Below are positions 4,619 to 18,969 of a stretch of DNA of 64,000 nucleotides, piece by piece. Under the pieces are notes generated by a model. That model had not been told where the DNA came from. It did no database searches and was given only the letters and a program-made list of their open reading frames with translations. Every line of letters starts with the position of its first letter. Position 1 is the stretch's first letter. Source of the stretch: Pandoraea pulmonicola (GTDB taxonomy: Bacteria; Pseudomonadota; Gammaproteobacteria; Burkholderiales; Burkholderiaceae); assembly GCF_000815105.2 (NCBI RefSeq), contig NZ_CP010310.2:1178001-1242000 (forward strand), given 5' to 3'. Made by a program: the position numbers and the translations under genes.

Positions 4619-5119
4619 TCATTTCACAGCACTGGTGCAGCGTTGAAAACCCTCCCGTAACGCAGCGCCCAACTCTGCATCTGATGCGAGTTCAGGGACA
4701 TGCAAAATCTCGGGACCGTCGTTGGATATGCCGGTGTAAGTATCCAGAGATTTGTGATGCGTCGGCTTAACCTGCACTTCCCCTTCCGATACACTGATCC
4801 AGCAGCAATTCATATTTCTGCGCATGGCGCGCTTTGTTTTATAGCCGTATTCATTCATAGCCCAAGCATCTCGAGAGTCCTCAATTTTCTGGATGTCTCC
4901 CGATTTCCAGAGTCTCTGAAACTCTTCCGAATCGACCGACCTACTTAGCGACAACGCGAGGCGCAAGGTCCGGCCAAGGGTCGCGTCGTCGACATCCGGC
5001 GGAAGAAAGTGTGGATCAGCGCTCGGCTCCGGGTAAGACAACATTCCAATGGACTGTGTCACGACATAAAAGAAATCACCATTAAAAAAGGCAACCGATC
5101 TAGCAGTTATTTTCTTCAT
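4619..5119 (-). CDS. CDI immunity protein-like (CdiI), displaced module
   Basis: The gene encodes 166 residues starting MKKITARSVAFFNGDF. The protein has the layout of contact-dependent growth inhibition immunity proteins found in Burkholderia: a central LGRTLRLALSLSR helix, a Tyr/Lys/Arg-rich middle with NCCWISV, and a C-terminal helix ASDAELGAALREGF. The family assignment is from memory of that pattern. Its ATG overlaps the TGA of an upstream cdiA fragment (ATGA overlap at 5116-5119), so it sits as an immunity gene does behind cdiA, but no toxin domain remains in front of it. This makes it an orphan immunity gene, probably protecting against a toxin carried by related strains. The A+T content is higher than in the flanking housekeeping genes. 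Confidence 0.6.
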   Translation of the reverse strand: MKKITARSVAFFNGDFFYVVTQSIGMLSYPEPSADPHFLPPDVDDATLGRTLRLALSLSRSVDSEEFQRLWKSGDIQKIEDSRDAWAMNEYGYKTKRAMRRNMNCCWISVSEGEVQVKPTHHKSLDTYTGISNDGPEILHVPELASDAELGAALREGFQRCTSAVK

Positions 5120-5298
5120 CTCGTTACTTGATGCTGGATGTCGCTGTCGCGCACCGTCAGTGCGCCGCCACTGATGCTGCTGCGCGTGATGCCCGACGCG
5201 TTTCCCGAAGCCTCCATGACCACTGGCATGTTGATCGACGCGCCACCCGACGAGCGCGGTAACTCAGTACCCGCAATTGGGTTGACGTTAGTTGTCAC
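5116..5298 (-). pseudogene. Fragment of a cdiA gene (region upstream of the toxin)
   Basis: The translation (for example NVNPIAGTELPRSSGGASIN and GGALTVRDSD) repeats a segment of the large CdiA encoded at about 10112-10263, at roughly 90% nucleotide identity by eye. The match begins near 5291 and ends near 5140, after which the frame closes with TGA overlapping the ATG of the next gene. The open frame begins with GTG, but the piece has no TPS domain and is not expected to act alone. It reads as the 3' scar of a former cdiA-CT/cdiI module whose toxin-coding part was lost, leaving the CdiI-like gene behind. Confidence 0.85.
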
Positions 5299-5356
5299 TT
5301 GAATTTGAAATCGTCAACTGCACCGGATATTCGGAGTGCGCCACAGCGATATTGCA

Positions 5357-5870
5357 TTAAACTCGGCGACCGACTTCAACGATAGGGGGCTCGGTGCAAA
5401 TAATGTTCACCACATCATTTTGAGTGAGAACAACGTAATGGCTGAGTTCACTCTCCCGGCGAACCTCATAGCTCTGCGTCACAAACCATGAAATTAGGGC
5501 AGAGTTTTTGACTTGGATGAGCGTACTCCCTAGACACCCATCTCTTCATCTGAGCCAAAAGACGCAAGGAATCGCCCTCGTCCGCCTTGCTATAGAAGAG
5601 GTAACTGTCAAACGAGAGACTAAACTCCCCTCCGTTTGCGGAGAGCAATAGTGTCAAGCATTTGCCCTCATCCGAGAGCCGAAGCAGATCAGGGCACTCT
5701 TCTGCAAACAATCTGTGAGAAACGACGGAAAAATCGCTCGTGTCTAGTACTTACCCCTCGGTCATTGCCGCTTCGACTCGAACCCGATCTTCTTCGTCAA
5801 ACAGCAACAGCAACGAAAGAGTCTCGCCTGGTTTCCGGTCCAGAACAGCATTGCGTAACGCTATCAAGAA
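5357..5870 (-). pseudogene. Decayed immunity-like gene with a stop and a frameshift
   Basis: Reading leftward, one frame gives FLIALRNAVLDRKPGETL and continues through an in-frame TAA at 5751-5753. It then runs on as an acidic, Leu-rich open stretch of about 95 codons (5466-5750). Near 5545 the sense frame shifts by one base: the new frame continues RDGCLGSTLIQVKNSA and ends at TAA 5357-5359. Both pieces look protein-coding (acidic, no low complexity), and together they would make a protein of about 170 residues, the size of an immunity protein. It begins exactly where a cdiA fragment ends (5869), so the 5' part may have been lost by recombination. I do not recognise the family. Confidence 0.55.
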
Positions 5871-5990
5871 TTCCCGGTAATGCTGCTACCCGCCCACGCA
5901 CAACGGCGGCATGCAAACACTTGCTGAGACTTACGCGTTCTACTGCTCCGAGTCGTAGCGGCTCGTGTCCCGCGAGTTCTCGAGGTTCCA
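5869..5990 (-). pseudogene. Degenerate cdiA fragment
   Basis: Read leftward, this stretch gives DTSRYDSEQ, a stop, then VSASVCMPPLCVGG. The big CdiA has DTSRYDSKQQSAG and VSASVCVPPLCAGG at about 10545-10665. Two in-frame stops and a shift break the frame, so it is a remnant. The sequence on its 5' side (about 5985-6040) departs from the resident cdiA but resembles the sequence flanking the other remnant near 8040-8100. The fragment therefore probably came from a different cdiA allele rather than by duplication of the resident one. Confidence 0.8.
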
Positions 5991-6069
5991 ATTCAGAGCT
6001 ATGGGGCCATCCAACGGCAAACCCAGCCGATGCGGGGTTGGTTGAACGGCGATTTTGCTATTGAGCAGA

Positions 6070-6483
6070 CTATTTCTCGTCGAAGCCATACTTCGAGGGA
6101 ATTTTGTAGTCCTCAGGAATCTCTGGCCAATGGAACCTTGGATCAGCACTGGCCTTGCCCAAATCATGGCGTAGTGCATCAAAAAAGCTCGTCAGATCAT
6201 GAGAGTACACGCTTGCTCGCAACAACCCGATCCTTGCTGCAAGGGGATCATTGGCAGCGAGAGCGCTCTTGTATAACTTAATCGCAGCCTCTAAGTTTGC
6301 AATATTCGATTGAAACCTCTCATTCAAATCGGATTTCCAACTGATGTGCCAATCAAAACTCAATTTCTCCTCGTTATAACAGTTGAGGTCCTCCTCCGTA
6401 AGGTTGTTAGATTTAGCTAAATCAACCAAGAGCTTCTTGACGTTTTCATAGTCCACAATCATCTCAATTTTATTCGCCGACAT
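6070..6483 (-). CDS. Hypothetical protein, probable orphan immunity protein
   Basis: This gene encodes 137 residues starting MSANKIEMIVDYENVKKLL. The start is set by a GGAGG at 6491-6495, seven bases upstream of the ATG; another in-frame ATG 8 codons upstream lacks such a site. The protein is soluble, acidic and helical (Leu/Lys/Asp-rich), with conserved-looking SFDWHISWKSD and FFDALRHDLGK stretches. There is no signal peptide or membrane segment. I do not recognise the family. Its size, composition, low GC and position between cdiA scars and an Imm8-like gene suggest an immunity protein left behind by a lost toxin; that role is inferred from context only. Confidence 0.55.
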   Translation of the reverse strand: MSANKIEMIVDYENVKKLLVDLAKSNNLTEEDLNCYNEEKLSFDWHISWKSDLNERFQSNIANLEAAIKLYKSALAANDPLAARIGLLRASVYSHDLTSFFDALRHDLGKASADPRFHWPEIPEDYKIPSKYGFDEK

Positions 6484-6575
6484 CGGGCCGCCTCCGTTCG
6501 TGTTCACCGATCTTCCAACTGTCGCCGCACCGCTTGTGGCAAAAAATCGCCGCTACCAACGTTGCTGAGAAAGTG

Positions 6576-6938
6576 CTAACGGTCCCGATAGTCTTCAAAC
6601 TCCCATGCGCCCATTCGGCTCAACTTGGTCGCGATAGCAGCCCAGTCTTCACCGTGGCAAGTTGCGACGTAGCGCTCAATGGCTGCTTTGATGGTCTTGT
6701 AATCATAGGCTTCAACAATCAGCATGTGCCTTCCCCACATTTGCCCCTCGATGGCGCATTGCGATTTAAGCCAGTCTGGTGTGCAGATCTCGATGTCGAA
6801 CGCTTCCGAACTGGCCTCGCTTTGCGGACCAATGTAGGCTCTAATCCATGTGCTGAAGTTCGATAAATCATCCGGCTGGTAATTGATCAGTCTGTCTTCC
6901 AACTGCAAGGAATGCAGCGATTTGATTTCAGCTTTCAT
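6576..6938 (-). CDS. Immunity protein 8 (Imm8) family
   Basis: This gene encodes 120 residues. The pattern MKAEIKSLHS, NFSTWIRAYIGPQ, FDIEICTPDWL, WGRHMLIVEAYDY and the C-terminal LSRMGAWEFEDY matches Imm8, a family of immunity proteins coded next to polymorphic toxins; I recall the IGP, CTP-WL and WEFEDY elements as its signature. It acts in the cytoplasm by binding a cognate toxin C-terminus. No toxin domain is coded next to it here, so it is an orphan. It lies in the leftward series of small genes behind cdiA. A weak ribosome binding site precedes the ATG. Confidence 0.75.
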   Translation of the reverse strand: MKAEIKSLHSLQLEDRLINYQPDDLSNFSTWIRAYIGPQSEASSEAFDIEICTPDWLKSQCAIEGQMWGRHMLIVEAYDYKTIKAAIERYVATCHGEDWAAIATKLSRMGAWEFEDYRDR

Positions 6939-7531
6939 GACGTAATATTCAAGTGTCCGCTGCTAATGGGCCTACTTCCAGGCGTTAGCTTCAATTCAAA
7001 ATTGGCCTGGACGCCGGTCATGGCATACGAACTGCTTGGCTTCGCTGGTGGCGGGCGATAGATCCGGAGTCCATCGCTACTCACCCACTATAAGCAATGA
7101 CTCGATATACGGGATCCTCTTGGCGACCGACTGCAACTACGGCGGATACAGACCTGAGGTTATCCGCTTCTCCCCTGGGTCTTACCGATCGATTTGGTGA
7201 GCATTAATCTGTGCGTCTTGCGCGTTCTCAAGCGCTATCGGGATGACCTATCTGAGCGTCGAGTGCTGGTGCATCCGAGGAGTGGGATGGCCTACGCAAC
7301 GCTCGCCAACGTCACAAAGGACAAGCCCGACGCGCCGCTGGGCTTGCCTCTCTGTTGGCAGGTTCATTAGTTGTTCCATCTTCCAGGAGACTTGAGTCTC
7401 CCAAAAGCGAGACCAACTCGTCGGACTGTGCTCTCTGATAGGGCTAGAGTAGAACGCGGAAAATATAGGATATCTGGGAAGGGTTCGACGGCTACCTGAT
7501 TGAGTTGTCGGTGACAAAAAATTTCCACAAG
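6939..7531. other. About 590 bases without a convincing gene
   Basis: This part of the cdiA-trailing region has no open frame with family likeness. Leftward, an 89-codon frame (7248-7517) is rich in Arg/Ser/Pro and looks like chance. Rightward, a short open stretch at about 7158-7370 reads plausibly (VLKRYRDDLSERR) but has no start signal or recognisable relatives. The segment may be the eroded remains of one or two further toxin/immunity modules. No terminal inverted repeats or transposase signatures were seen. Confidence 0.5.
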
Positions 7532-7891
7532 TTAAGATCCATGCAGCGTCCCGTCAGGTGCAACCCACAATATTGCTGGCATGTCGTAGAAATAGTCTGT
7601 CAGCGCGACATTTTTCTCAGAAGTGACGTCAAGCGGCCATCGAGCTTTAAAGTACTCTAAGATCGTCTCGGTATCGGCATCCCAAACGTCATACCTCTCA
7701 TGCCAAAATTCGTTGGGTGGGCAAAATTTGACGCTCCCTTGGTCAAGCAGTTGCCCTAGCAAGTCGAAGAACGCTTTCTTTTGCTCCTGAAACGTGATGC
7801 CCGGATTCCAACCGCTTATGGCACTAAAAAACCCTGAGATCCAAAGCCCAAACGAGCAGCGAAGGATATCTTCGACGTGATCGATCTTCAT
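7532..7891 (-). CDS. DUF596-like immunity protein, second copy
   Basis: This gene encodes 119 residues. It is a clear paralogue of the gene at 8185-8583: both share FGLWISG-FSA, GWNPG, a Phe-rich helix with LL..LL, RWP, a Y-FY motif and a final LWV.-DG. The pattern is that of DUF596, a small family found beside polymorphic toxins. A GAGAGG lies about 9 bases before the ATG. The protein is cytosolic, with no signal peptide. It is separated from the first copy by a scrap of cdiA (about 8033-8085), so it was probably the immunity gene of an earlier toxin version related to the present one. Confidence 0.65.
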   Translation of the reverse strand: MKIDHVEDILRCSFGLWISGFFSAISGWNPGITFQEQKKAFFDLLGQLLDQGSVKFCPPNEFWHERYDVWDADTETILEYFKARWPLDVTSEKNVALTDYFYDMPAILWVAPDGTLHGS

Positions 7892-8032
7892 TGCGATGTG
7901 CCTCTCAAGAATCTGACTTCCTTGTTGGCCGACGTTCCGAGAGTTCTGCTCAGGACTTAGATTGTCCGTGCTAGTCCAGGTTGAGTTTGGGATGACGACA
8001 TCGAGGGTGTGAGGCCACCAGACGGAGCGCCG

Positions 8033-8085
8033 ACGTAGCGGCTCGTGTCCTGCAAATTTTCAAGGTTACAACCCGGAGCTATGGC
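8033..8085 (-). pseudogene. Short cdiA scrap between two immunity genes
   Basis: Leftward translation gives CNLENLQDTSRY, matching NLTVESLQDTSRY of the resident CdiA (around 10640-10670) and NLENSRDTSRYDSEQ of the remnant near 5960. Only about 50 bases are recognisable. Its place between two paralogous immunity genes marks an old recombination junction. Confidence 0.65.
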
Positions 8086-8184
8086 GTCGACAAATGATAA
8101 ACTTGGTCGATTCCGGATTTTTTGAACTAGGATCTCAGCTATTAAGCTTAGTTGATGTCACCGTCGTATTTGTGGCACGAACCT

Positions 8185-8583
8185 CTACGAAACGACGAGC
8201 CGTCCGTCCTCCCCGACCCAGATTAATCCAGGTAACTCATAAAAGTAGTACGTCAACTCGATATCCTTTTCGTCACTAGCCTTCTCGGGCCACCGGCCTC
8301 GCACGTAGTCCATGATCTCGGATATTGGGGCATTCCATCGTGCTTCGGGGTCCTCCACTGTGAGCTTCGGCGTAGGATTTGCCGGTGAGACATAGCAATC
8401 AGCTCCGGGCGCAATGAACATCACCTTGCCCTCCCGAAGCAGTGTTTCGAGAAGCGATAAGAAATACTCCTTCTTCTCCAGAAAGGAGGCACCCGGGTTC
8501 CAACCACACACGGCGCTGAACAGTCCGGATATCCAGAGTCCGAAGGCATCGCGAACAATTTCGCGCTGGTGGTTCAGTATCAT
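8185..8583 (-). CDS. cdiI: Cognate CDI immunity protein, DUF596-like
   Basis: This gene encodes 132 residues from ATG 8583, two bases after the cdiA TAA. A GAGG inside the last cdiA codons gives a good ribosome binding site, so it is probably translationally coupled to the toxin. The protein shows FGLWISGLFSAVCGWNPG, a LLETLLREGKVMF helix, RGRWP, TYYFYELP and LIWVGEDG, which I associate with DUF596. Position directly after the toxin makes it the likely cognate immunity protein, binding the CdiA C-terminal toxin in the cytoplasm of the producer and its siblings. It has a paralogue at 7532-7891. Confidence 0.75.
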   Translation of the reverse strand: MILNHQREIVRDAFGLWISGLFSAVCGWNPGASFLEKKEYFLSLLETLLREGKVMFIAPGADCYVSPANPTPKLTVEDPEARWNAPISEIMDYVRGRWPEKASDEKDIELTYYFYELPGLIWVGEDGRLVVS

Positions 8584-8585
8584 AT

Positions 8586-11500
8586 TTACCTCAGGAACTT
8601 GATTTCTGGATTGTAGGTCTTTCCGACAGCGCTGCCTGGAACGTCGATTGTCCATACGGATCCGGTCTGGCTTGATGAACCGGCGAAATCACGGAGAGTA
8701 AAGTTACCTTGGGGTGTCTTTACCACATAGATTGTTCCCTGGCCTGAAATGGTCCGAGCTGCGGGCATTTGAGACGCACCGGACAGTTTCATGAAGTACT
8801 GCTGAACTTGCGCATCGGTTACCCCCGAAAATATGGCTGCATTTCCCGACTTCGGAAGTGTAGTGAAAGTCGATTCGCCGATCTGAATCGTTCCCTGTGC
8901 GTTCGACGAGAACAGATCCTTCACCTGCTGCAAGGCAGACGGTGTGTTTGTGGCGTTCGAATTTCCACCACCCTGCGCCCCCCGATACTTCCCTCCCGCC
9001 TTACTCCCCGCAATACCCGCAGCAACCGCCGCGACAGTCTGCGCCAACTCCTGGCTGATGCCAAACTTTTCCTTGAACTGCTTCGCGAGCTCAGGTTCGT
9101 TGACCGCAGCAACCGCGTCGTTATAGTGCAGCAGGTAGATGCCCAGATCATTCTTGATCGTGCTTGGCAGCTTTTCGCCCACAGCCGCATCCAACGTTTT
9201 TCGGAAATCACTGAGCTCCGCAAGGTAGCTTCCAAATTCTCCCTGACAAGCTTTCGGATCAGCCGCACAGGTAGCAACCAGCTTTTCCTGATTCGCTGCA
9301 CTGAGGGCCCGATATTTGTCCCTTACTTGCTCGCAAGTGTTAGTTCGCTCGCATCCTTTCGCCTCCTGGATCAGTAGCTTGAACTCACTGAGGGTAAGCG
9401 CGTTATTGACGGTTTCTATCGTCGCACCCGCGCTCGCAGATACGACATCGGTGCCCGCCACCCCCGCGATACCCGCGACAATCCCGGTAATCAGATTCGT
9501 GCGGTTCTCTTTCTCTTCGACGCTCAGATCTTCGCCAGACTTCCCATTGGCTCCGTCGAGCAGGTTATTGAGCACCACACTGGCCGACGCACCCAGCGCA
9601 CCAGCACCGCAGTTCCCTCCGGAGGCCGCAGATCCCGCACACCCGACAATCGCTTGCAGAGCAACCCGCGCAGGCTCACTGCCGAGATTGTCCGCAATCC
9701 TCTTGACCTGTTCGGCCCCGAGGCTCTGCAGATAGCTGACCATCGTGTTCGTCGCGACTTCCCCCATGCCACCCGCGACGTTGCCGCCAACTCCAATTGA
9801 GATCGCAGTGACGATCCGGCGATACTCGCCACCCGGTGCCCATTTTTGGGCTTCGGCGATCTGCTGATCCAGTTGTGCCTGCTTTTCCGGATCCGTTTCC
9901 TTTTCTCGTCGCGCCTTGAGATCATCCGCCTCGCGCGCCTTATTCGTCACCAGCGTGTTCACCTGATTGATGAACTGCCCGACGATCTCAAACCCGGCTT
10001 GAATCTTCTCCTTGTCGAATATCTGCTCGACAGAGCCATTCGTATTCGACGTATCGCGATTCACGTTCGCGACGGCTTCGTCGGCTGTCTCACCGGTCAG
10101 CTTCCGCTGCGCGTCGCTGTCGCGCACCGTCAACGCACCGCCGCTGATGCCGCTGCGCGTGGTGCCCGACGCGCTTCCCGACGCCCCCATGACCACCGGC
10201 ATGTTGATCGACGCGCCACCCGACGAGCGAGGCAACTCCGTACCCGCAATCGGGTTGACGTTATCCGCCTTACCCTCGCGGTCCTTGCCGATCGACGTAC
10301 CGAAGCCACCGCCCAGCCCGACCTGCGAGCCTGAGTACGATGCGTGATTCTCGATATCGCTGTGCGTGAGCGTACCCGTCGTCAGACGATTGCTGCCATT
10401 GGCAACAGCCTCGTCATTGCTCGCGATCACGCCGCCCACCAGACCGGTATTGCCCTTCACATCGATCTGGAAGCCACCGCTACCCGCACGAATCCCCGTC
10501 TGCTCGATCACGCTCGCATAGTCGCTATTGAGCTTCTGCTGACCGATATTCCCGGCAATGCTGCTACCACCTGCACACAGCGGCGGCACGCAAACGCTTG
10601 CCGACACCCCCGCGCTCTGCTGCTTCGAGTCGTAGCGGCTGGTGTCCTGCAAACTCTCCACCGTAAGATTGCCGCCCACGTTCGCCACGACTTGCCGCCC
10701 TTCGACGACAGCCCCGCGCAAGGTCGTATCCGCACCGGATTTGATCGTCAGCTTATCGCCCGCCTGCACATGACTGTTACTCCACGCCACGTCGTCGCCA
10801 TCGGCGTTGCCGCGATTGCCGGACACGCCGGCGTTGAACGAAATTCCGGACTTCGAGCCCACCGTGAACGAAACCCCAAGGCTCGCGTTCGTCCCCGAGT
10901 TGTTGCTGTGCTGCGAACTGGTGTTCTGCGCGGCCTGAATGTTGACGTCGCCATCCGCACTCAGCAGCGCATTCTGGCCGGCCTTGATCTGACTGCCGAC
11001 GATGGACAAATCGCTATCGGCACCACCACCCGACGCCGTGATGTTCACGTTCCGGTTGCCCGAAATCCGACTGCCCGCGGCCGTCGACGACTGCGACGTC
11101 GTTTCGCTGTTGCTGCGACTGGCCCCCAACGACACGTTAATGCCGACACTCGTCGCTTCCTTCGGATCCTTGGCGATGGTGTCCGCCGCGTTCGCCACGG
11201 CCAATCCGGCAGTCGCCCCCGCCAGCGCGAGAAGACGCGCATCCCCTTTGGCTCGGCTCGCTGACTTCGCAACGTCGGTCGTCGCCTGCACCGCCGCCAG
11301 AATCGGATTCGTGAACCCGATCGTCAGGCCGGACTGCTGGAACGACTGCTTCTCGTTCATGCCGAACGTGTCATGGGCGGCATCGATGGTGACCGATTTG
11401 CCTGCCAAGTTGACGTCGTTACCCGCATGCAGCGTGCTGCCGGTCACGTGCAGCGTCTCACCCGCCTTGACGGTCAGGTTGCCGTCGACCGATCCCACCA

Positions 11501-14500
11501 GGCTGCCGGTGTGGGTGACTTGCGACGACCGTTGATCGTCCGACTGCGAGCGACTGCCGATCGAAAACGAAAGGCCACCGTTGGACATGAAACCCGATTC
11601 GCGCTGCGAGAACGAACTTGTCGCGTCGGTGCGATCTTCCGACGTCGTGATCGTGACGTTGCGCCCGGCGCTCAACGTCACGTCGTTCGTGCCCACGATA
11701 TTGCTGCCCTGAACCGTCAGGTCGTTCGCGGCCTTCACCGTCACGGTATCGCCCGAAAGCGTGCTCGCAACCCCCGCATCGACATGCTGCTGTTGCGCCG
11801 ACGAAGTCTGCGTGCCGCTGACGAAGCTGCCGCGCTTCGAATCGACAGCCACGTCGCTGTCGTGACGCTCACGCGCCTCCTGCACCACGACGTTGCCCGA
11901 CGCGACCACGGTAATGCCGCCCTTGGTCGTGGCATCGGTCCCCGATGTCACCGTCGAGCCGGTGACGGTGACGTTCCCCTTGGTGGCGTCCGTCTGATTC
12001 GACGCGGCCAGCACGATCGCGCCGCCCGATGAAATCGACGACCCTACGGTGCGCTCGTCGTAGCCGTGACTGACTTCCTGACGCGACGCGGAATCCGCCG
12101 CGACGTTGCTGCGCGTCGCCGTATCCTTCGCCGCGGAGATATTCAGGTCGCCACCCGCCAGGATGCTCGCCCCCTTGCCCGCGGTAATCTGCGCGCCGGA
12201 CAGGGTGGTGTCGTTCACACTGGTCGTCGACAGCGTGCCGCCGGTCGTAATGCTCGACGTCTTGTTCAGCGTCGTCGATTCTTCCCAGTGATGGGCGTCG
12301 TTCTGATGCATCGACTGGTCGACGTTCACCTGCACCGTGTCGACTTTCAGGTCGCGCCCGACGATGATCTGCGCATCGCCACCGGCGGAGATCGCACCGC
12401 CCCTGACCGTCAGATCCCGACCCGCACCGATCGCCAGATCGCCGGTCGACGCGATCGTGCCCGTCTTGCCGAGCAACGACGTGGTGACCTGGGTGTTGCC
12501 GCTTTCGCGATGCATACCCTTCAGGTCGACGTCGGTCGTGTTGACGACATCGCGTCCGGCCAGCACAGCCACGCGATCCCCGGAGATTTCGCCCGACGCG
12601 TTGATGATGTCGTTCGCTGCGACGATTCGGGTGGTGCCCGCGTCACCGCCCGCTCCACCGCTGGTGATCGTGCCGGAACGGTTGATGACGTCGCCTGCCT
12701 CGACGAGCGTATTGGTGCCCGCCTTGATGACGCCGCTGTTGGCCAACGAACCGCTCGCGTGTACCTGAATGTCGTTGCCGGCGATCAACGCGCCTGACGG
12801 CTGGAGATCGCCCGCACGCGGCTTGGCGAGATACACCACCGGCGCCAGCACCTGCGTGGATGTGCCGTCAGGCAGCGTCACGTTCTGCGACACGAGCCAG
12901 ACGATGTCGCTGGTGAGCGCATCCATCTGGGCTGCCGTTAACCCGACGCCTGGCACCAACCCGAACTGCTTGGCGTAGTTCGCGCCGTTGGTCATCAGAT
13001 CGCGATATTCGGCCTCGGCGTTGTTGTACCCCTGAAGGTAGGTGCGGCCCGTCATCTGCGTGATCTGATCGCGCACCTGCTGCTGCTCGTACAACCCATC
13101 GCCCAGGCGTTTCTCGCTCGTCTGCGGATTGAATCCGATCTGCTGGAGCAGGTAATCGCTGGACACGAAGCTGGCGTACTGCGTGAGCCGCGGATCGGTC
13201 ACGATCAGATACGGCTGTCCCGGTGCAGTGCGCAGGCTGTACAGGCCGTTGGTCGGCAGCTTGAGGTTCAGTTGCCCGGTCGGTCCGGCCACGGTCTGCC
13301 ACGTCTTGCCGGTGACCGTCACGCCAGAAGCATTGGCGCCGAGCGTGCTGCCCGCACCCGCTCCCGTGTTGGTGTTCGTGACGTTCTTTGCGTCGATGGT
13401 GACGCTGCCGCCCGCAACGATGGTGCCGCCCGTCGAGCCGATGGCCACCGGTGCGACCACGACCGGCGCCTGCACGATAGTGCCCATGTCGCTGCCGATG
13501 CCCTCGTTCCACGAGTACGTGGAGACGATGTCCTGCGTGGCGCGCCGGTACAGCGTCTGTCCGATATTGGTGACGGTCGTGCCACCGATCGAACCGCTGT
13601 CGACGGCGCCGCTCTGGCTGGTGTTGCCGATGACGATATTGCCGCCCGCGGCGATGGCGCTGTGCTCGTTGGTCAACGATCCCACGTTGCGCATGACCAG
13701 ATTTCCGCCCGCGATCAACGTGGCTTTCGGCGCCGCGCCGCCGCTGATCACGTCCTCGGACGAGTTCGTCGTCACTTCGCGTGAGATCTCCACACGCTGA
13801 TAGCCCTTATGGCCGTCGCTACGTGTCGGAAACTCCGTGCCCGGATCGTAGTTGACGTGCGGGTCGTAGGCGTCCCAGTAGTTCACCGTGACGGTGCCGT
13901 TACCGTTGTCGGTCACGCTGTTGTAGTACAGCGTCCGAGGGCCGCTGCCGCTGTTGACGACAATCACCCGATCGACGGCGTTCGGCCCGTCGGACTTGGA
14001 GACAACGCTGCTGTTGCTGAACGTCACGTTGAGCGGCGTGTTGTACCCTTCGTCCCGAAGCGATTGCGGACACGTTTTCGAGGCGTTCATCGTGGCGCAG
14101 CCGATGTACTTGTCCCGTTTGGTCAGTGTCTGCACCTGTGGACCGCTCGACTGTGTCACGGCGGTAGGCGCCGGCCGGCGGTTCACGATCGAATCGGCCG
14201 CGATCTCGATGCCCGTTCCCGCCTCGATAGACGACTGGTCGTTCAACACCGAAGCGGTGCGGCGCGTCAGATAACCCGACGCATCGCGCGTGTCGCCGCC
14301 GGCGATGTTGATCTTTCCGATACTGAACAGACTCGCCTGCGACTGGTTGGTCAACGTGCCGGCCGCATACAGACTGAGTTCCGACGCCGCGCCGATGACC
14401 GCACTCGCGCCGGTATTGGTGATGCTGTTCGCGCGCAAGGTCACGTTGTTGCCGATGATCGTGCTCACGTTATTCACCGCTCCGGCGGTGATATCCAGCG

Positions 14501-17084
14501 TGTCTCCCTCGAGGCGGCCGGTGTTGGTCAGCGTGTTGATGGCGTTGAGCGTGGTGGTCTTCGCGAACATGCCGCCCGCGGAATCGTTCATGATGCTCGC
14601 GCCGCGCACCCGCAATTGATTGGCGGAGGTGAACGTGCCGGCGTTCGTTACGGCTCCTGTTGCCACCTGCACATTCAGGTCGCGACCCGCGGCGGTTTGG
14701 CCCCCAATGCCATTGGCAAACGTCCCGGCCGTGATCGTGACGTCGCCCTTTCCGCCGATGATCCCTACCTTGGTCGTCCGGGCGGCGTCCTGATTGGTCA
14801 GAGTGCCGGTAGCGCTCACCTGTGTGGCGCCCACGCCCGCGTTGACGATGCGTCCCGAGCTGTTGTCGACGGCGTTGCCCGAGACGTCGAGCGTCGCGTT
14901 CTGATCGTTGGCTTCGATGCGGCCGCCGGTGTTGTTCAGCACGCCGCCTGCCGAAGCCGTCAATGCCGAGACGGCCTGAATCAGGCCGCCGTCGTTGGCG
15001 ATATCGGTGCGCGCGCTCAAGCTCAGACCCTTGCCGCTCACGATCGAGCCGGCATGATTGTCCAGACTGGCGAGCTTGATCGTCGCATCGCCGTTCGACG
15101 CGATCGCACCGCTGCGATTCGAGAGGACTCCCGAGGTGAGCGTCAACACGCCGCCGCCTGACAGTTTGAGGTTGCCGAGATCGTTGGTCAGTGAGCCCGC
15201 GGACACCGTGAAGTCGCGTCCGTTGGACTGAAGCTGCCCGGAGGTGTTGTCGAGCAGGCCGCCCGACGTCAGACGCATTTGCGCCGCCGACTCGATGCGG
15301 CCGCCGCGATTCGAGAGTGTCGTCAGCGCGTTCGCTGTGACGGATTTGCCGCCGGTCAGCGTCCCGGCCGTGTTATCGAGCGAGGTGGTGCCGACGTCGA
15401 TGTCGCCATTGGACGTGATCGTGCCGGAGCGATTGCTCAGGGCGCCCGCTGTCACCGAGAGATTGCCGATCCCGGCGTGAGCGAGCGCACCGTCCTCGTT
15501 CGTCAACGTGGCGGCGGAAACCGTCATATCGCCGCCGTTCGACCGGATTTCTCCCGACGTGTTATCCAGCGTCCCTGCCACCGAAAAGAACGTCTTGCCC
15601 GTCCCGATATGGCGCAGATGGCCACCGGCGTTGTTCAGGCTGCCAACGGTGAACCCAAGTCGATCTGCCGTAAGCGTGGCCCGACGGGTATCCGTGCCGC
15701 CGCTTACGTCGAGCGTCAGTACGTCGGTCGCGGTGATGGTCGCATCGCGCAAATCCGCGGACGCCGCCCTCAACGCAATGTCGCTCCCCGCGGTGGCCAG
15801 CCCCGAAAGACGGGCCTGCGCCAGGGCGTTGACGGCCATCCGTCCGGCATTGGTCACCGCTCCGCGCTCGTCCACGCCAGCACCCAGCGAACCCGACGAC
15901 TGGACATTCCGAGCGTTCAGCGTGACGTCCCCGGCGCCTGCAATCGTCCCGCTGTTGCTCAGCGTCGAATCACTTCCGACCGACACCGTACCCCGGGCAT
16001 AGAGGCTCCCGCGATTGTCGACAGCGCCCTTGGCACTCGCCGCAAGGTCGCCGGACGCCATCAACTTGCCGGACTGCACCAGGTCGCCATTCGTGCGCAA
16101 CGTCAGCTCGCCCGCCTGTGCGGCAATGATCCCGTTGTTGGACACCCCCACGCCGTTCTCGGTACCGACCAGGAAGATGCGATTGGCATACATGCCGCCG
16201 AGCTGACCGACATCGAGGGCAACGCCGGGCGCCGCGCCCGTGGACGTATCCGCCGATGCGTTCAACGTGTCGTGATCGACCCGATTGGCCCCGGTCACGA
16301 CGTTCAGACGATTCCCATAGATCGAGGCATTGACGGAGACGGCCCGCGCGATCAAATCGATCTGATCGACGTTTCCGGCATTCAGCCCTCCGCCCTGGAC
16401 CGCGATGGTGCCTCGCGAGACCTGAAAGCCGTTGAGCGTGCCGTCTGCCCCGAAGATCGGCGCGCCGGTCGTGAGAATGCCGCGCGAGGTGTTGATGAAC
16501 CCGCCGCCGTCGACCACGATCCCGTTGCCATTGGCCACGATCACCTCGGCGCGATTGCCGGCCACTTCGAGATAACCGCGAATCTGACTGGGCAAATTGC
16601 CCGTGACCTGATTGAGGATGATGCGCGCCGACTGACCTTGCGCCAGATTCGGGTTACCGGCGACCAGCCCCGCTTGCTGCGTTTGAGCGATGGTCGCCGA
16701 ATTATTGAGGATCGCGCCTTGCCGGGGAACATCGAACTGGGAGTAGAGATTCTGTGAAACGCCGCCAGCGGAGGGAGCCGTGATATTGACCTGCGGCAAC
16801 CCATTCTGCGTCTGAATCACTCCGGGACGATTGGCGCCCGCGTTCGGGTCCGCCACGATCTGCGCGATCGTCGCCAGCGGCTGCGCAACGATCGCCGCAA
16901 TGACGACATGCGCCACGAGGCGCTTGAACCTTGTGACGTGGGTTGCCGAGTAATTTCCTGTTTGTGTCGGACCGACACCGCCGTTCGACTGAAAGATCCC
17001 CGATGAAACGACTGATGCAGAACCGGAAGCAATCCCCGACGCCTTTCGACGCCCTCCGGACATCGAATGACTGATCTTATGCAT
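8586..17084 (-). CDS. cdiA: CdiA/FhaB-type contact-dependent inhibition exoprotein
   Basis: This gene encodes a 2832-residue two-partner-secretion exoprotein. A hydrophobic signal (about residues 52-76) follows a long N-terminal extension. The TPS/haemagglutination domain (about 85-320) has the NPNL motif at 144-147 and the VVANGNGIVVDGGGFINT-type strand. Then come hundreds of residues of filamentous-haemagglutinin repeats. The pre-toxin helical region is near 2520-2600, ending in TVNN where many relatives have VENN. The last ~110 residues (about 2720-2832) form a variable C-terminal domain ending WTIDVPG and EIKFLR, presumably the toxin; its activity is not recognisable to me. It is secreted through CdiB and delivered to neighbouring cells on contact. 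The start could also be the ATG at 17063; neither has a strong ribosome binding site. Confidence 0.9.
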   Translation of the reverse strand: MHKISHSMSGGRRKASGIASGSASVVSSGIFQSNGGVGPTQTGNYSATHVTRFKRLVAHVVIAAIVAQPLATIAQIVADPNAGANRPGVIQTQNGLPQVNITAPSAGGVSQNLYSQFDVPRQGAILNNSATIAQTQQAGLVAGNPNLAQGQSARIILNQVTGNLPSQIRGYLEVAGNRAEVIVANGNGIVVDGGGFINTSRGILTTGAPIFGADGTLNGFQVSRGTIAVQGGGLNAGNVDQIDLIARAVSVNASIYGNRLNVVTGANRVDHDTLNASADTSTGAAPGVALDVGQLGGMYANRIFLVGTENGVGVSNNGIIAAQAGELTLRTNGDLVQSGKLMASGDLAASAKGAVDNRGSLYARGTVSVGSDSTLSNSGTIAGAGDVTLNARNVQSSGSLGAGVDERGAVTNAGRMAVNALAQARLSGLATAGSDIALRAASADLRDATITATDVLTLDVSGGTDTRRATLTADRLGFTVGSLNNAGGHLRHIGTGKTFFSVAGTLDNTSGEIRSNGGDMTVSAATLTNEDGALAHAGIGNLSVTAGALSNRSGTITSNGDIDVGTTSLDNTAGTLTGGKSVTANALTTLSNRGGRIESAAQMRLTSGGLLDNTSGQLQSNGRDFTVSAGSLTNDLGNLKLSGGGVLTLTSGVLSNRSGAIASNGDATIKLASLDNHAGSIVSGKGLSLSARTDIANDGGLIQAVSALTASAGGVLNNTGGRIEANDQNATLDVSGNAVDNSSGRIVNAGVGATQVSATGTLTNQDAARTTKVGIIGGKGDVTITAGTFANGIGGQTAAGRDLNVQVATGAVTNAGTFTSANQLRVRGASIMNDSAGGMFAKTTTLNAINTLTNTGRLEGDTLDITAGAVNNVSTIIGNNVTLRANSITNTGASAVIGAASELSLYAAGTLTNQSQASLFSIGKINIAGGDTRDASGYLTRRTASVLNDQSSIEAGTGIEIAADSIVNRRPAPTAVTQSSGPQVQTLTKRDKYIGCATMNASKTCPQSLRDEGYNTPLNVTFSNSSVVSKSDGPNAVDRVIVVNSGSGPRTLYYNSVTDNGNGTVTVNYWDAYDPHVNYDPGTEFPTRSDGHKGYQRVEISREVTTNSSEDVISGGAAPKATLIAGGNLVMRNVGSLTNEHSAIAAGGNIVIGNTSQSGAVDSGSIGGTTVTNIGQTLYRRATQDIVSTYSWNEGIGSDMGTIVQAPVVVAPVAIGSTGGTIVAGGSVTIDAKNVTNTNTGAGAGSTLGANASGVTVTGKTWQTVAGPTGQLNLKLPTNGLYSLRTAPGQPYLIVTDPRLTQYASFVSSDYLLQQIGFNPQTSEKRLGDGLYEQQQVRDQITQMTGRTYLQGYNNAEAEYRDLMTNGANYAKQFGLVPGVGLTAAQMDALTSDIVWLVSQNVTLPDGTSTQVLAPVVYLAKPRAGDLQPSGALIAGNDIQVHASGSLANSGVIKAGTNTLVEAGDVINRSGTITSGGAGGDAGTTRIVAANDIINASGEISGDRVAVLAGRDVVNTTDVDLKGMHRESGNTQVTTSLLGKTGTIASTGDLAIGAGRDLTVRGGAISAGGDAQIIVGRDLKVDTVQVNVDQSMHQNDAHHWEESTTLNKTSSITTGGTLSTTSVNDTTLSGAQITAGKGASILAGGDLNISAAKDTATRSNVAADSASRQEVSHGYDERTVGSSISSGGAIVLAASNQTDATKGNVTVTGSTVTSGTDATTKGGITVVASGNVVVQEARERHDSDVAVDSKRGSFVSGTQTSSAQQQHVDAGVASTLSGDTVTVKAANDLTVQGSNIVGTNDVTLSAGRNVTITTSEDRTDATSSFSQRESGFMSNGGLSFSIGSRSQSDDQRSSQVTHTGSLVGSVDGNLTVKAGETLHVTGSTLHAGNDVNLAGKSVTIDAAHDTFGMNEKQSFQQSGLTIGFTNPILAAVQATTDVAKSASRAKGDARLLALAGATAGLAVANAADTIAKDPKEATSVGINVSLGASRSNSETTSQSSTAAGSRISGNRNVNITASGGGADSDLSIVGSQIKAGQNALLSADGDVNIQAAQNTSSQHSNNSGTNASLGVSFTVGSKSGISFNAGVSGNRGNADGDDVAWSNSHVQAGDKLTIKSGADTTLRGAVVEGRQVVANVGGNLTVESLQDTSRYDSKQQSAGVSASVCVPPLCAGGSSIAGNIGQQKLNSDYASVIEQTGIRAGSGGFQIDVKGNTGLVGGVIASNDEAVANGSNRLTTGTLTHSDIENHASYSGSQVGLGGGFGTSIGKDREGKADNVNPIAGTELPRSSGGASINMPVVMGASGSASGTTRSGISGGALTVRDSDAQRKLTGETADEAVANVNRDTSNTNGSVEQIFDKEKIQAGFEIVGQFINQVNTLVTNKAREADDLKARREKETDPEKQAQLDQQIAEAQKWAPGGEYRRIVTAISIGVGGNVAGGMGEVATNTMVSYLQSLGAEQVKRIADNLGSEPARVALQAIVGCAGSAASGGNCGAGALGASASVVLNNLLDGANGKSGEDLSVEEKENRTNLITGIVAGIAGVAGTDVVSASAGATIETVNNALTLSEFKLLIQEAKGCERTNTCEQVRDKYRALSAANQEKLVATCAADPKACQGEFGSYLAELSDFRKTLDAAVGEKLPSTIKNDLGIYLLHYNDAVAAVNEPELAKQFKEKFGISQELAQTVAAVAAGIAGSKAGGKYRGAQGGGNSNATNTPSALQQVKDLFSSNAQGTIQIGESTFTTLPKSGNAAIFSGVTDAQVQQYFMKLSGASQMPAARTISGQGTIYVVKTPQGNFTLRDFAGSSSQTGSVWTIDVPGSAVGKTYNPEIKFLR

Positions 17085-17214
17085 ATACGTATAGTTCGGA
17101 CTTCGTATTTTTTAATATACTTAATATACCAAACTTATCATTAACAACGCCAAGCACACTAAGTCTGCGTATTTTTGTTGCTTTGGCTGAGTGTCTGATT
17201 TCTTACAAAACACA
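17085..17214. promoter_or_regulatory. Divergent cdiA/cdiB promoter region
   Basis: The 130-base gap between the divergent cdiA and cdiB starts is strikingly A+T-rich (ATTTTTTAATATACTTAATA around 17107-17126) in a genome of about 64% GC. Both promoters must lie here, or the genes use far leader sequences. I could not settle on single -35/-10 pairs. Such A+T-rich gaps are typical targets of H-NS-like silencers; that is inference. Confidence 0.55.
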
Positions 17215-18969
17215 ATGAATCGCATCAATCCGGGGGCCATCGGGCGTCTGTTATTTGCTTTCACTTTTTGCATCGGGGTTTCAGCAAACGCGCAACAAGG
17301 CGGACTCAGTCCGACGTTGAACGCGGAGCAGGATCTACGGGCGCGCCAGCAGCAGGAAGCTCAGGAGCGAGCCCGGGAAGTCAATGCGCCGGGCGTGCGC
17401 TCCGCGCTGCCACCGGCCGCGGGGGACGTCGAACTCCCGGAGGAGCAGCCTTGTTTCAGGATCGACACCTTCAGCGTCGTCGTGCCGGAGGCGCTACCGG
17501 ATACGACGCGGCAGCTTGGCGCGTCGGCATTGCCGATGGATCGCTTCGCCTTTCTGCGGGAAAAACTCGACCGATATCGCGGCGCCTGCATTGGGCAAAA
17601 GGGCATCGACCTGCTGGTCCGGTCGTTGTCGGAAGCGGTGCTTCAACGCGGGTACGTGACCACGCGACTTCTGCTGCCGGAGCAGCAGCTGTCCAGCGCA
17701 AAGCTCACGCTGGTGTTGATTCCCGGCGTCATCCACCAGATTCGCTTCGAGGATCCGTCGCTGTGGGGAACCTGGCGCTCGGCGTTCCCGACGCGCGCGG
17801 GCGACCTGTTGGATCTGCGGGATCTGGAGCAGGGGCTCGAACAGATGAAGCGTGTGTCGAGCCAGGACGTCTCCATGCAGATCGTGCCCACCGACCAGCC
17901 GGGCGAGAGCGACATCGTGATCGCGATCACACGAGCCAAGCCGGTCAGCGTCGCGTTATCCGTGGACAACTCGGGGGCGCGCTCGACCGGCAAGTTGCAG
18001 GGGAATGTCAGCATCGGCGTGGACAATCCGCTTGGCTTGAACGACCTGCTGCGAGTGGGCGGCAGCCATGATTTGACGACTGCGGACAAGTCATACGGAT
18101 CGAGCGGATGGAACGCGTTCTATTCCGTGCCATGGGGATACTGGACGGGCACGGTTTCCGCCTATTCGACGAAATACTTTCAGCAGATCGCCGGCATTAA
18201 TCAGACCTTCGTCTCCAGCGGCAACTCGCAGAACATCGACTTCAAATTGCATCGCGTTATCGCGCGAAGTCAAAACGATGTCACCGGCGTTCAGTTTCGT
18301 CTCACGCGTCGATTTGGCAAGAGCTTTATCGAAGATACGGAAATCACGCAGCAACACCGGAATAACACGATTATCGAATTCGGCGTCACTAATCGGCACT
18401 ATTTCGGCAACGCACAGTTCGACGGAAATCTCGCATTTCGGCAGGGCGTGGCGGGATTCGGCGCTTATCCCGATACCCTGGCGGAATTCGGTGGACCCAC
18501 GTACCGGTTCCGCATGCTCGTCGCCGACGCCAATGTCGGTGCGTCATTCAAGGTAGGCGGCATCCCGCTGCAGTACACGGGGACGATCCACGGCCAGTGG
18601 ACTCGCGCGAAGCTGTATTACATCGACGACATCGCCATCGGCAGCCGCTACACGGTGCGCGGCTTCGACGGCGAGTCGATGCTTGCGGCTGAGCAGGGTT
18701 TCTATTGGCGCAACGAACTTCAGACGCCGCTCGGACAAAGCGGTCAGGCCGTTTTCGCCGGGGTGGACTACGGACAGGTGTGGGGGCCGAACACGCAAAC
18801 GCTGGTGGGTACGCGACTGGTCGGTGCGGTTATCGGTTTGCGCGGCAGTTACCGGGCTCGTTTCGTCTCGCTCGCCTACGAACTGTTCGCTGGCACCCCG
18901 ATTCACAAACCCAAGGCGTTCGAGACGGCCAGGGTGACGATCGGGTTTCAGGTGTCCGCGTTGTTCTGA
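17215..18969 (+). CDS. cdiB: CdiB-type two-partner-secretion pore
   Basis: This gene encodes about 584 residues from ATG 17215; a GTG 8 codons upstream is also open, but the signal peptide (residues ~10-30, cut near SANAQQ) starts naturally at MNRINPG. After it come POTRA domains (EEQPCFRIDTFSVV, then KGIDLLVRSLSEAVLQRGYVT) and a ShlB/FhaC beta-barrel ending in FQVSALF with a C-terminal Phe, as outer-membrane barrels do. The VRGF (RYTVRGFDGE) motif of the L6 loop is present. Its job is to pass unfolded CdiA across the outer membrane. It is transcribed away from cdiA, unlike the usual cdiBAI or bcpAIOB order. Confidence 0.9.
   Translation: MNRINPGAIGRLLFAFTFCIGVSANAQQGGLSPTLNAEQDLRARQQQEAQERAREVNAPGVRSALPPAAGDVELPEEQPCFRIDTFSVVVPEALPDTTRQLGASALPMDRFAFLREKLDRYRGACIGQKGIDLLVRSLSEAVLQRGYVTTRLLLPEQQLSSAKLTLVLIPGVIHQIRFEDPSLWGTWRSAFPTRAGDLLDLRDLEQGLEQMKRVSSQDVSMQIVPTDQPGESDIVIAITRAKPVSVALSVDNSGARSTGKLQGNVSIGVDNPLGLNDLLRVGGSHDLTTADKSYGSSGWNAFYSVPWGYWTGTVSAYSTKYFQQIAGINQTFVSSGNSQNIDFKLHRVIARSQNDVTGVQFRLTRRFGKSFIEDTEITQQHRNNTIIEFGVTNRHYFGNAQFDGNLAFRQGVAGFGAYPDTLAEFGGPTYRFRMLVADANVGASFKVGGIPLQYTGTIHGQWTRAKLYYIDDIAIGSRYTVRGFDGESMLAAEQGFYWRNELQTPLGQSGQAVFAGVDYGQVWGPNTQTLVGTRLVGAVIGLRGSYRARFVSLAYELFAGTPIHKPKAFETARVTIGFQVSALF

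Follow-up and report, generated by a model that had tools for sequence, protein, structure and literature searches.

How did a locus with one intact toxin gene for contact-dependent growth inhibition (CDI) come by a row of small immunity-like genes behind it, with no complete toxins to go with them? The locus in question belongs to Pandoraea pulmonicola, whose genome is a single contig of 5.87 Mb. We call the window the whole stretch of 64,000 nucleotides analysed (positions 1178001-1242000 of that contig), and the small genes fill 4 kb of it (4619-8583), directly behind the resident cdiA. Taken as a whole, this segment is very probably a 3′ archive left by repeated module replacement, in which the toxins were lost and the immunity genes would protect. 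That cdiA-CT/cdiI modules were displaced one after another and lost their toxins is well supported, retention of the displaced immunity genes for protection is plausible, and the order of events along the array is one that we infer.

The proposed history is as follows. Imported toxin/immunity modules would have replaced the 3′ end of this cdiA several times, each pushing the older modules downstream, and the toxin part would have been lost at or after displacement, mostly by deletions joining a cdiA scrap to the last residues of the toxin or to the immunity gene. Most immunity genes would have stayed open, the scraps and toxin stubs being the scars, and the intact ones would be expressed and protect against neighbours still deploying these toxins. 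Two routes would fit: a whole module could be displaced and then undergo an internal deletion, which would leave a scar with a scrap, or the new module could be joined inside the old toxin, which would leave a scar without one. The features concerned are listed from the transporter gene towards the far end of the array.

17191-18969, plus strand: cdiB-type transporter (ShlB, POTRA_2, POTRA_3; ShlB E 2e-98), divergent from cdiA
8586-17084, minus strand: resident cdiA, intact, 2832 aa, with a two-partner secretion (TPS) domain, haemagglutinin repeats and a C-terminal toxin
8589-8942, minus strand: resident toxin domain, "ToxA", the last 118 aa (CdiA residues about 2715-2832)
8185-8583, minus strand: ImmA, the immunity gene cognate to the resident toxin, DUF596-like, starting two bases behind the cdiA stop
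8034-8147, minus strand: 114-nt element, copy 1, behind ImmA; its last 23-39 nt are cdiA scrap 3
7889-8033, minus strand: stub of the lost toxin that went with ImmB: the final ~45 aa, interrupted by one stop; shares the frame of scrap 3 and overlaps the start of ImmB
7532-7891, minus strand: ImmB, displaced immunity gene of the ImmA family
7357-7476, minus strand: broken remnant of a 79-aa immunity gene resident in genome G021 (55% over 42 aa, E 4e-8)
6942-7118, minus strand: stub of the lost toxin that went with Imm8, about 48-59 aa
6576-6938, minus strand: Imm8 (PF15586, E 1.4e-43), displaced immunity gene
6070-6507, minus strand: DUF6853-like (PF21593, 27.3 bits, cut-off 27) displaced immunity gene
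5954-6066, minus strand: 114-nt element, copy 2, behind the DUF6853-like gene
5870-5981, minus strand: cdiA scrap 2, frame-broken, from CdiA residues about 2143-2179
5378-5744, minus strand: broken displaced immunity gene (the decayed type), frame-broken; its homologue is an immunity gene in another genus
5295-5327, minus strand: 10-aa toxin 3′ end, as in the resident toxin of genome G024, directly before scrap 1
5122-5298, minus strand: cdiA scrap 1, CdiA residues about 2274-2324; its stop overlaps the CdiI start
4619-5119, minus strand: CdiI (PF07262, E 1.5e-41), displaced immunity gene

Immunity genes of the array and their relatives

A first-pass annotation of this DNA had counted at least five leftward immunity-like genes, a decayed one at 5357-5870, three cdiA scraps and no second complete toxin, in a segment of low GC. 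All five intact genes are present. The one at 8185-8583 lies directly behind the cdiA stop, is the resident toxin's own cognate gene and represents no displaced module; the displaced set is therefore four intact and two broken genes, which with the resident immunity gene make up the array. The decayed gene is indeed a broken immunity gene, of smaller extent (about 5744-5378). The remnant at 7357-7476 and the toxin stubs before ImmB, Imm8 and scrap 1 had not been listed. GC is 51.3% over 4619-8583 and 62.7% in the rest of the window, as had been noticed, and the lowest-GC stretch of 3965 bp in the window (51.2%, steps of 200) starts at 5001. Genes 7532 and 8185 are homologous (about 40-44% identity) and neither matched a Pfam family when searched singly. 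In sequence, CdiI has a solved relative, EC869 CdiI-o11 (E 4.5e-19). The likely start of the DUF6853-like gene is the ATG at 6483, preceded by GGAGG.

The small genes belong to toxin/immunity modules. For 6/6 immunity families (ImmA and ImmB counted as one), a homologue was found directly behind a cdiA or toxin frame in another genome. Homologues of ImmA and ImmB stand behind toxins of the ToxA family in P. capi (locus L107) and in another genus (L108, genome G165). The cognate copy of Imm8 is in P. terrae, where a toxin frame at 3-1223 of L022 overlaps Imm8 at 1220, and that of the DUF6853-like gene lies behind a cdiA-CT in P. terrae L084. Homologues of the decayed gene were found in L109 (9473-9880), two bases behind a cdiA frame of 3076 aa, and in L110 (9205-9783). 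The remnant at 7357-7476 belongs to the family of the 79-aa gene behind the resident cdiA of G021, and a CdiI homologue follows a cdiA frame of 3575 aa in G200. Together with the alignment of the scraps to cdiA described below, these six families support the repeated replacement of the cdiA 3′ end put forward in the first-pass annotation, which would have fallen had the small genes lacked relatives next to cdiA or the scraps failed to align.

Two loci outside this genome carry several of the same families. In L108, 10504-12640 holds ToxA-ImmA, then a broken Imm8 with a toxin stub, then an intact Imm8, so that two families of the window recur there in unchanged order; a cdiB-like frame lies farther downstream on the same strand. 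In L110 (G191), DUF6853-like, ImmA/B-like (judged by eye) and decayed-type immunity genes stand side by side at 8095-9783, which suggests a pool of immunity genes common across genera.

Scraps, stubs and the 114-nt element

The three cdiA scraps are real. By blastn against the resident cdiA, scrap 1 aligned at 5140-5290 (90.7% over 151 nt), scrap 2 at 5870-5981 (80.4% over 112 nt) and scrap 3 at 8034-8056 (95.7% over 23 nt, 38.3 bits), a score that 0/300 dinucleotide shuffles of the archive reached (maximum 33.7). Scraps 2 and 3 correspond to CdiA residues about 2143-2179 and scrap 1 to about 2274-2324, of 2832. They had been thought to come from just upstream of the toxin; they originate in fact roughly 390-570 residues before the toxin domain. 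At the protein level, the resident CdiA shares 86% identity with scrap 1 and 66% with scrap 2, whereas no other cdiA of the 53 stretches collected exceeds 46% and 44%, respectively. A DNA search of 32 Pandoraea genomes with these two scraps matched only this genome's cdiA, only part of the first-look candidates having been scored. Judged from these alignments, scraps 1 and 2 are of local origin, from the cdiA of this locus.

The alternation of scraps and immunity genes had been taken as a record of successive replacements. This needs correction for scraps 2 and 3, which are common in origin, because both belong to the 114-nt element present twice. The two copies are 71% identical, and their first about 75 nt are not recognisably cdiA. 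Most likely, then, scraps 2 and 3 descend from one junction, and they are not two independent scars. A blastn search of 249 sampled genomes of the family with copy 2 did not find the full element outside this genome; weak partial matches were seen in G071 (30 nt, E 0.001, in the non-cdiA part) and in G233 and G161 (in the cdiA part). Among the collected loci, a profile built from the two copies detected the full element nowhere but in this genome.

No displaced toxin in the window is complete: all that is left are stubs of about 10-59 aa, in agreement with the first-pass annotation. The stub before ImmB matched the end of the ToxA family with a score of 75 (maximum of 1000 shuffles, 54). The stub before Imm8 is 80% identical in amino acids to the last 59 aa of a toxin known whole in P. 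terrae. The 10-aa toxin end at 5295-5327 scored 52 (maximum of 100 shuffles, 44), and the immunity gene expected between it and scrap 1 is missing. A toxin stub was also sought in the gap 7119-7360, where nothing scored better than shuffles. Two further observations concern the spaces between these features. A 49-nt match (80%, E 9.5e-4) to the array of G024 (L024, 8309-8261) occurs at 7294-7342, between the remnant of the 79-aa gene and the Imm8 toxin stub. At 5755-5857 (minus strand), between scrap 2 and the decayed gene, about 35 codons form an open tail; compared with the collected toxins it gave no match, and it may be another remnant.

Other genomes hold the same structures at different stages. 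Behind a different resident module, G021 carries about the last 66 residues of ToxA followed by the ImmA gene, 82% identical in DNA to the window over 602 nt (85% between the ImmA genes). One module is thus resident in this genome and truncated in another Pandoraea. The order cdiA scrap, toxin stub, immunity gene, found here at ImmB, recurs in L023 (G027), L091 (G031) and L110; in L023, 28 cdiA residues at 96% are followed by a 25-residue stub and then Imm8. The source genome, which has three further cdiA loci (L009, L010 and L012), also has an intact displaced module in L010 (14438-16690 and 16701-16997), and other Pandoraea have more. Such modules are the expected precursor state of a stripped array. 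L010 further contains, at 17693-18814, a frame encoding a CdiA-CT RNase A domain (PF18431, E 5.8e-28) that has no cdiA frame next to it. Behind it comes an immunity-like gene; in L012 the homologue of this gene (15626-16060) stands without a recognised toxin.

Toxin loss and the fate of the immunity genes

The toxins might instead have been cut at the moment of displacement. An incoming module, anchored by homology in cdiA, would have been joined illegitimately inside the old toxin and no scrap would remain; this is the model of homology-facilitated illegitimate recombination of Kirchberger et al. for the type VI secretion system (T6SS). Stubs free of scraps (the 1.5 kb in front of the immunity gene holding no recognised piece of cdiA other than the main frame) speak for it, at Imm8 in the window, L012, L021, L068 (11815) and L108, where moreover about 20 bp separate ImmA from the start of the Imm8-toxin stub. 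We nevertheless lean away from it as the explanation of the array. Scrap 3 is in frame with the ImmB toxin stub and scrap 1 is joined directly to CdiI, and because scraps are joined to stubs or to CdiI, a displaced cdiA fragment and an internal deletion are needed. The order scrap, stub, immunity gene in the three other loci, and the existence of intact displaced modules with cdiA fragments, argue against it as well. Both routes may operate. It is also conceivable, though improbable, that the remnants are working parts: scraps serving as right-hand homology arms, frames of scraps and stubs that end on an immunity start (scrap 1-CdiI, scrap 3-stub-ImmB) acting as leaders for translational coupling, and toxin loss steered to scars that keep the immunity gene expressed. 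The first of these rests on the 114-nt element, part flank and part cdiA, standing behind both ImmA and the DUF6853-like gene.

Two other origins of the genes were weighed. They could have been collected singly by horizontal transfer as defence cargo, rather than displaced from this cdiA. This would suit the DUF6853-like gene and CdiI, which have no recognised toxin stub, and the scattered distribution of the families (CdiI in 2/249, the ImmB family in 4/249 and the decayed type in 3/249 of the sampled family genomes, own counted). With scraps closest to the locus's own cdiA and toxin stubs standing among the genes, it is already disfavoured and we think it unlikely. That one immunity gene was duplicated on the spot and then diverged, as the homology of ImmA and ImmB could suggest, is contradicted and hardly credible: ImmB is 44% identical to the resident ImmA, and 47% to that of P. 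capi, 44% to that of G021 and 44% to that of G165. This comparison, made for the ImmA/ImmB pair, indicates that the immunity genes are not duplicates within the genome; the others differ in family.

Whether the displaced immunity genes bring a benefit is a separate matter. They could be neutral relics, simply not yet decayed, and this may well deserve consideration, although we doubt it. Against it, 4/6 displaced immunity genes are open in the window and 0 displaced toxins are complete, and a census across the genus points the same way. A cdiA 3′ region matched at E<=1e-10 in 23/32 Pandoraea genomes, own included, and the census covered 53 oriented stretches, 49 from Pandoraea (window included) and 4 from other genera; the cdiA 3′ matches G026:C205, G008:C1 and G028:C4, as well as L011 and L095, were left out. 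Doubtful entries were removed by hand from the library of 71 toxin/immunity pairs, which left 59 toxins and 61 immunity proteins, and a toxin or immunity gene was called complete from 80% upwards. There were 53 complete displaced immunity genes (26 with a full toxin, 8 with a stub, 19 with none) plus 11 places with a partial one only. Complete displaced toxins numbered 33; a full immunity gene accompanied 26 of them and a partial one 1, and 6 had none. In addition, 5 toxin stubs lacked an immunity gene. In these counts the truncated ToxA of G021 just passes the 80% rule and figures as a full toxin, and ImmB figures as having no toxin despite the stub found before it. Immunity genes without a full toxin (27/53) were commoner than toxins without a full immunity gene (7/33; Fisher p 0.007, in a test that treats places as independent though loci are related, and with unrecognised partners possible). 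Among the 26 complete displaced pairs, 14 are library members and hence paired by construction; p was 0.02 without the window and 0.025 without these 14 pairs.

Several points weigh on the other side, against the proposed history or against protection in particular. The asymmetry becomes marginal (p 0.05) once both the window and the 14 pairs are removed, and the hand-cleaned library is restricted to families seen as pairs. Imm8 genes separated from their toxin gave dN/dS values of 0.09-0.20 among themselves, and the toxin stub used as control gave 0.09; because the dead stub has the same low value, dN/dS cannot show retention for protection, and the constraint on Imm8 may predate displacement. 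A consensus promoter scan gave a single promoter-like site in all (shuffle mean 3.5), and it lay on the other strand, leaving none on that of the genes. Two of the 6 displaced immunity genes are broken. No toxin stub better than shuffles was found before the DUF6853-like gene or the decayed gene, and directly before the former there is neither scrap nor recognised stub. Expression and protection by the intact displaced genes are, moreover, what we infer.

Two analyses were set aside. A first census was discarded, since three entries listed as "toxins" in its library turned out to be an immunity gene or cdiA core. An age gradient, with more toxin loss farther from cdiA, was also sought: immunity genes without a toxin turned out to lie closer to cdiA, the reverse of what was sought (p 0.02; 2/53 places lacked a reference point). 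This is no ground for claiming a gradient, because complete modules carry their own cdiA fragment and are farther by construction.

The resident locus and known systems

The resident protein has the make-up of a CdiA, with a TPS domain (PF05860, E 1.6e-51), haemagglutinin repeats (PF13332, E 3e-57) and a polymorphic C-terminus. The ToxA family also occurs on CdiA-like proteins of Burkholderia, Paraburkholderia, Rhizobium and Ralstonia. An AlphaFold2 model of ToxA (pLDDT 90) compared with the PDB by Foldseek gave no match at E<=0.001, and no convincing solved relative. The model of ImmA (pLDDT 94) resembles the meningococcal COG3792 protein 2o5h (E 1.6e-3, TM 0.62); the DUF596 profile (PF04591) does not match ImmA alone and matches 9/37 family members weakly (best E 5e-5). 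The cdiB-type gene is adjacent to cdiA in divergent orientation, and the Burkholderia-type cdiAI(O)B order, with cdiB downstream of cdiA on the same strand, is not found here. This divergent arrangement (8586-18969), unlike both cdiBAI and cdiAI(O)B, recurs in L012 (2787-13173), where the CdiB-like frame was assigned by eye from its sequence only. The flanking genes of the locus are rare in the genus (2/32 and 3/32 genomes, own counted, at the cut-offs used), so that no empty insertion site could be demonstrated in the Pandoraea genomes.

Among the titles that a literature search listed, none concerned CDI in Pandoraea; arrays of this type are known from other bacteria. In the accessible part of a CDI review (PMC9086364), up to 15 orphan immunity genes are cited at P. 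aeruginosa cdi loci, as are orphan modules in Burkholderia; the excess of immunity genes over toxins seen here is like that of the P. aeruginosa loci, as far as this citation goes. Three potential orphan cdiI genes are described, in an excerpt, for A. baumannii DSM30011. In the T6SS immunity gene arrays attributed to sequential effector displacement, as presented in the excerpts of Kirchberger et al. (2017, PMC5361080), one live pair is likewise followed by immunity genes of displaced modules, with a 3′ remnant of an effector. The truncated effector with a conserved immunity gene has its counterpart in the G021 stub and in the Imm8 and ImmB stubs. Unlike those arrays, the toxin here is a two-partner CDI toxin, and the cdiA scraps indicate that at least some modules were displaced together with sequence of the delivery gene, deleted later.

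The closest likeness is to the arrays of orphan cdiA-CT/cdiI modules which, from what could be consulted of it, Poole et al. (2011, PMC3150448) describes. As there, the array lies behind cdiA on the same strand, its families follow full-length cdiA genes elsewhere, and one window gene, CdiI, belongs to the EC869 CdiI-o11 family. Those arrays usually pair orphan toxin fragments with immunity genes, whereas only stubs and scraps are left in the window, full orphan modules being found in L010. The Discussion of that paper asks why toxin fragments are kept if cells collect immunity genes. The present locus is a clear case in which they were not kept, its scars record how several toxins went, and G021 has already reduced the module resident here to a stub. 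It also points to toxin/immunity pairs in relatives that are suited to a direct test of the "immunity bank" idea. The array is of a known type, that of orphan cdiA-CT/cdiI modules and T6SS immunity arrays, here stripped of its toxins and with unusually legible remnants.

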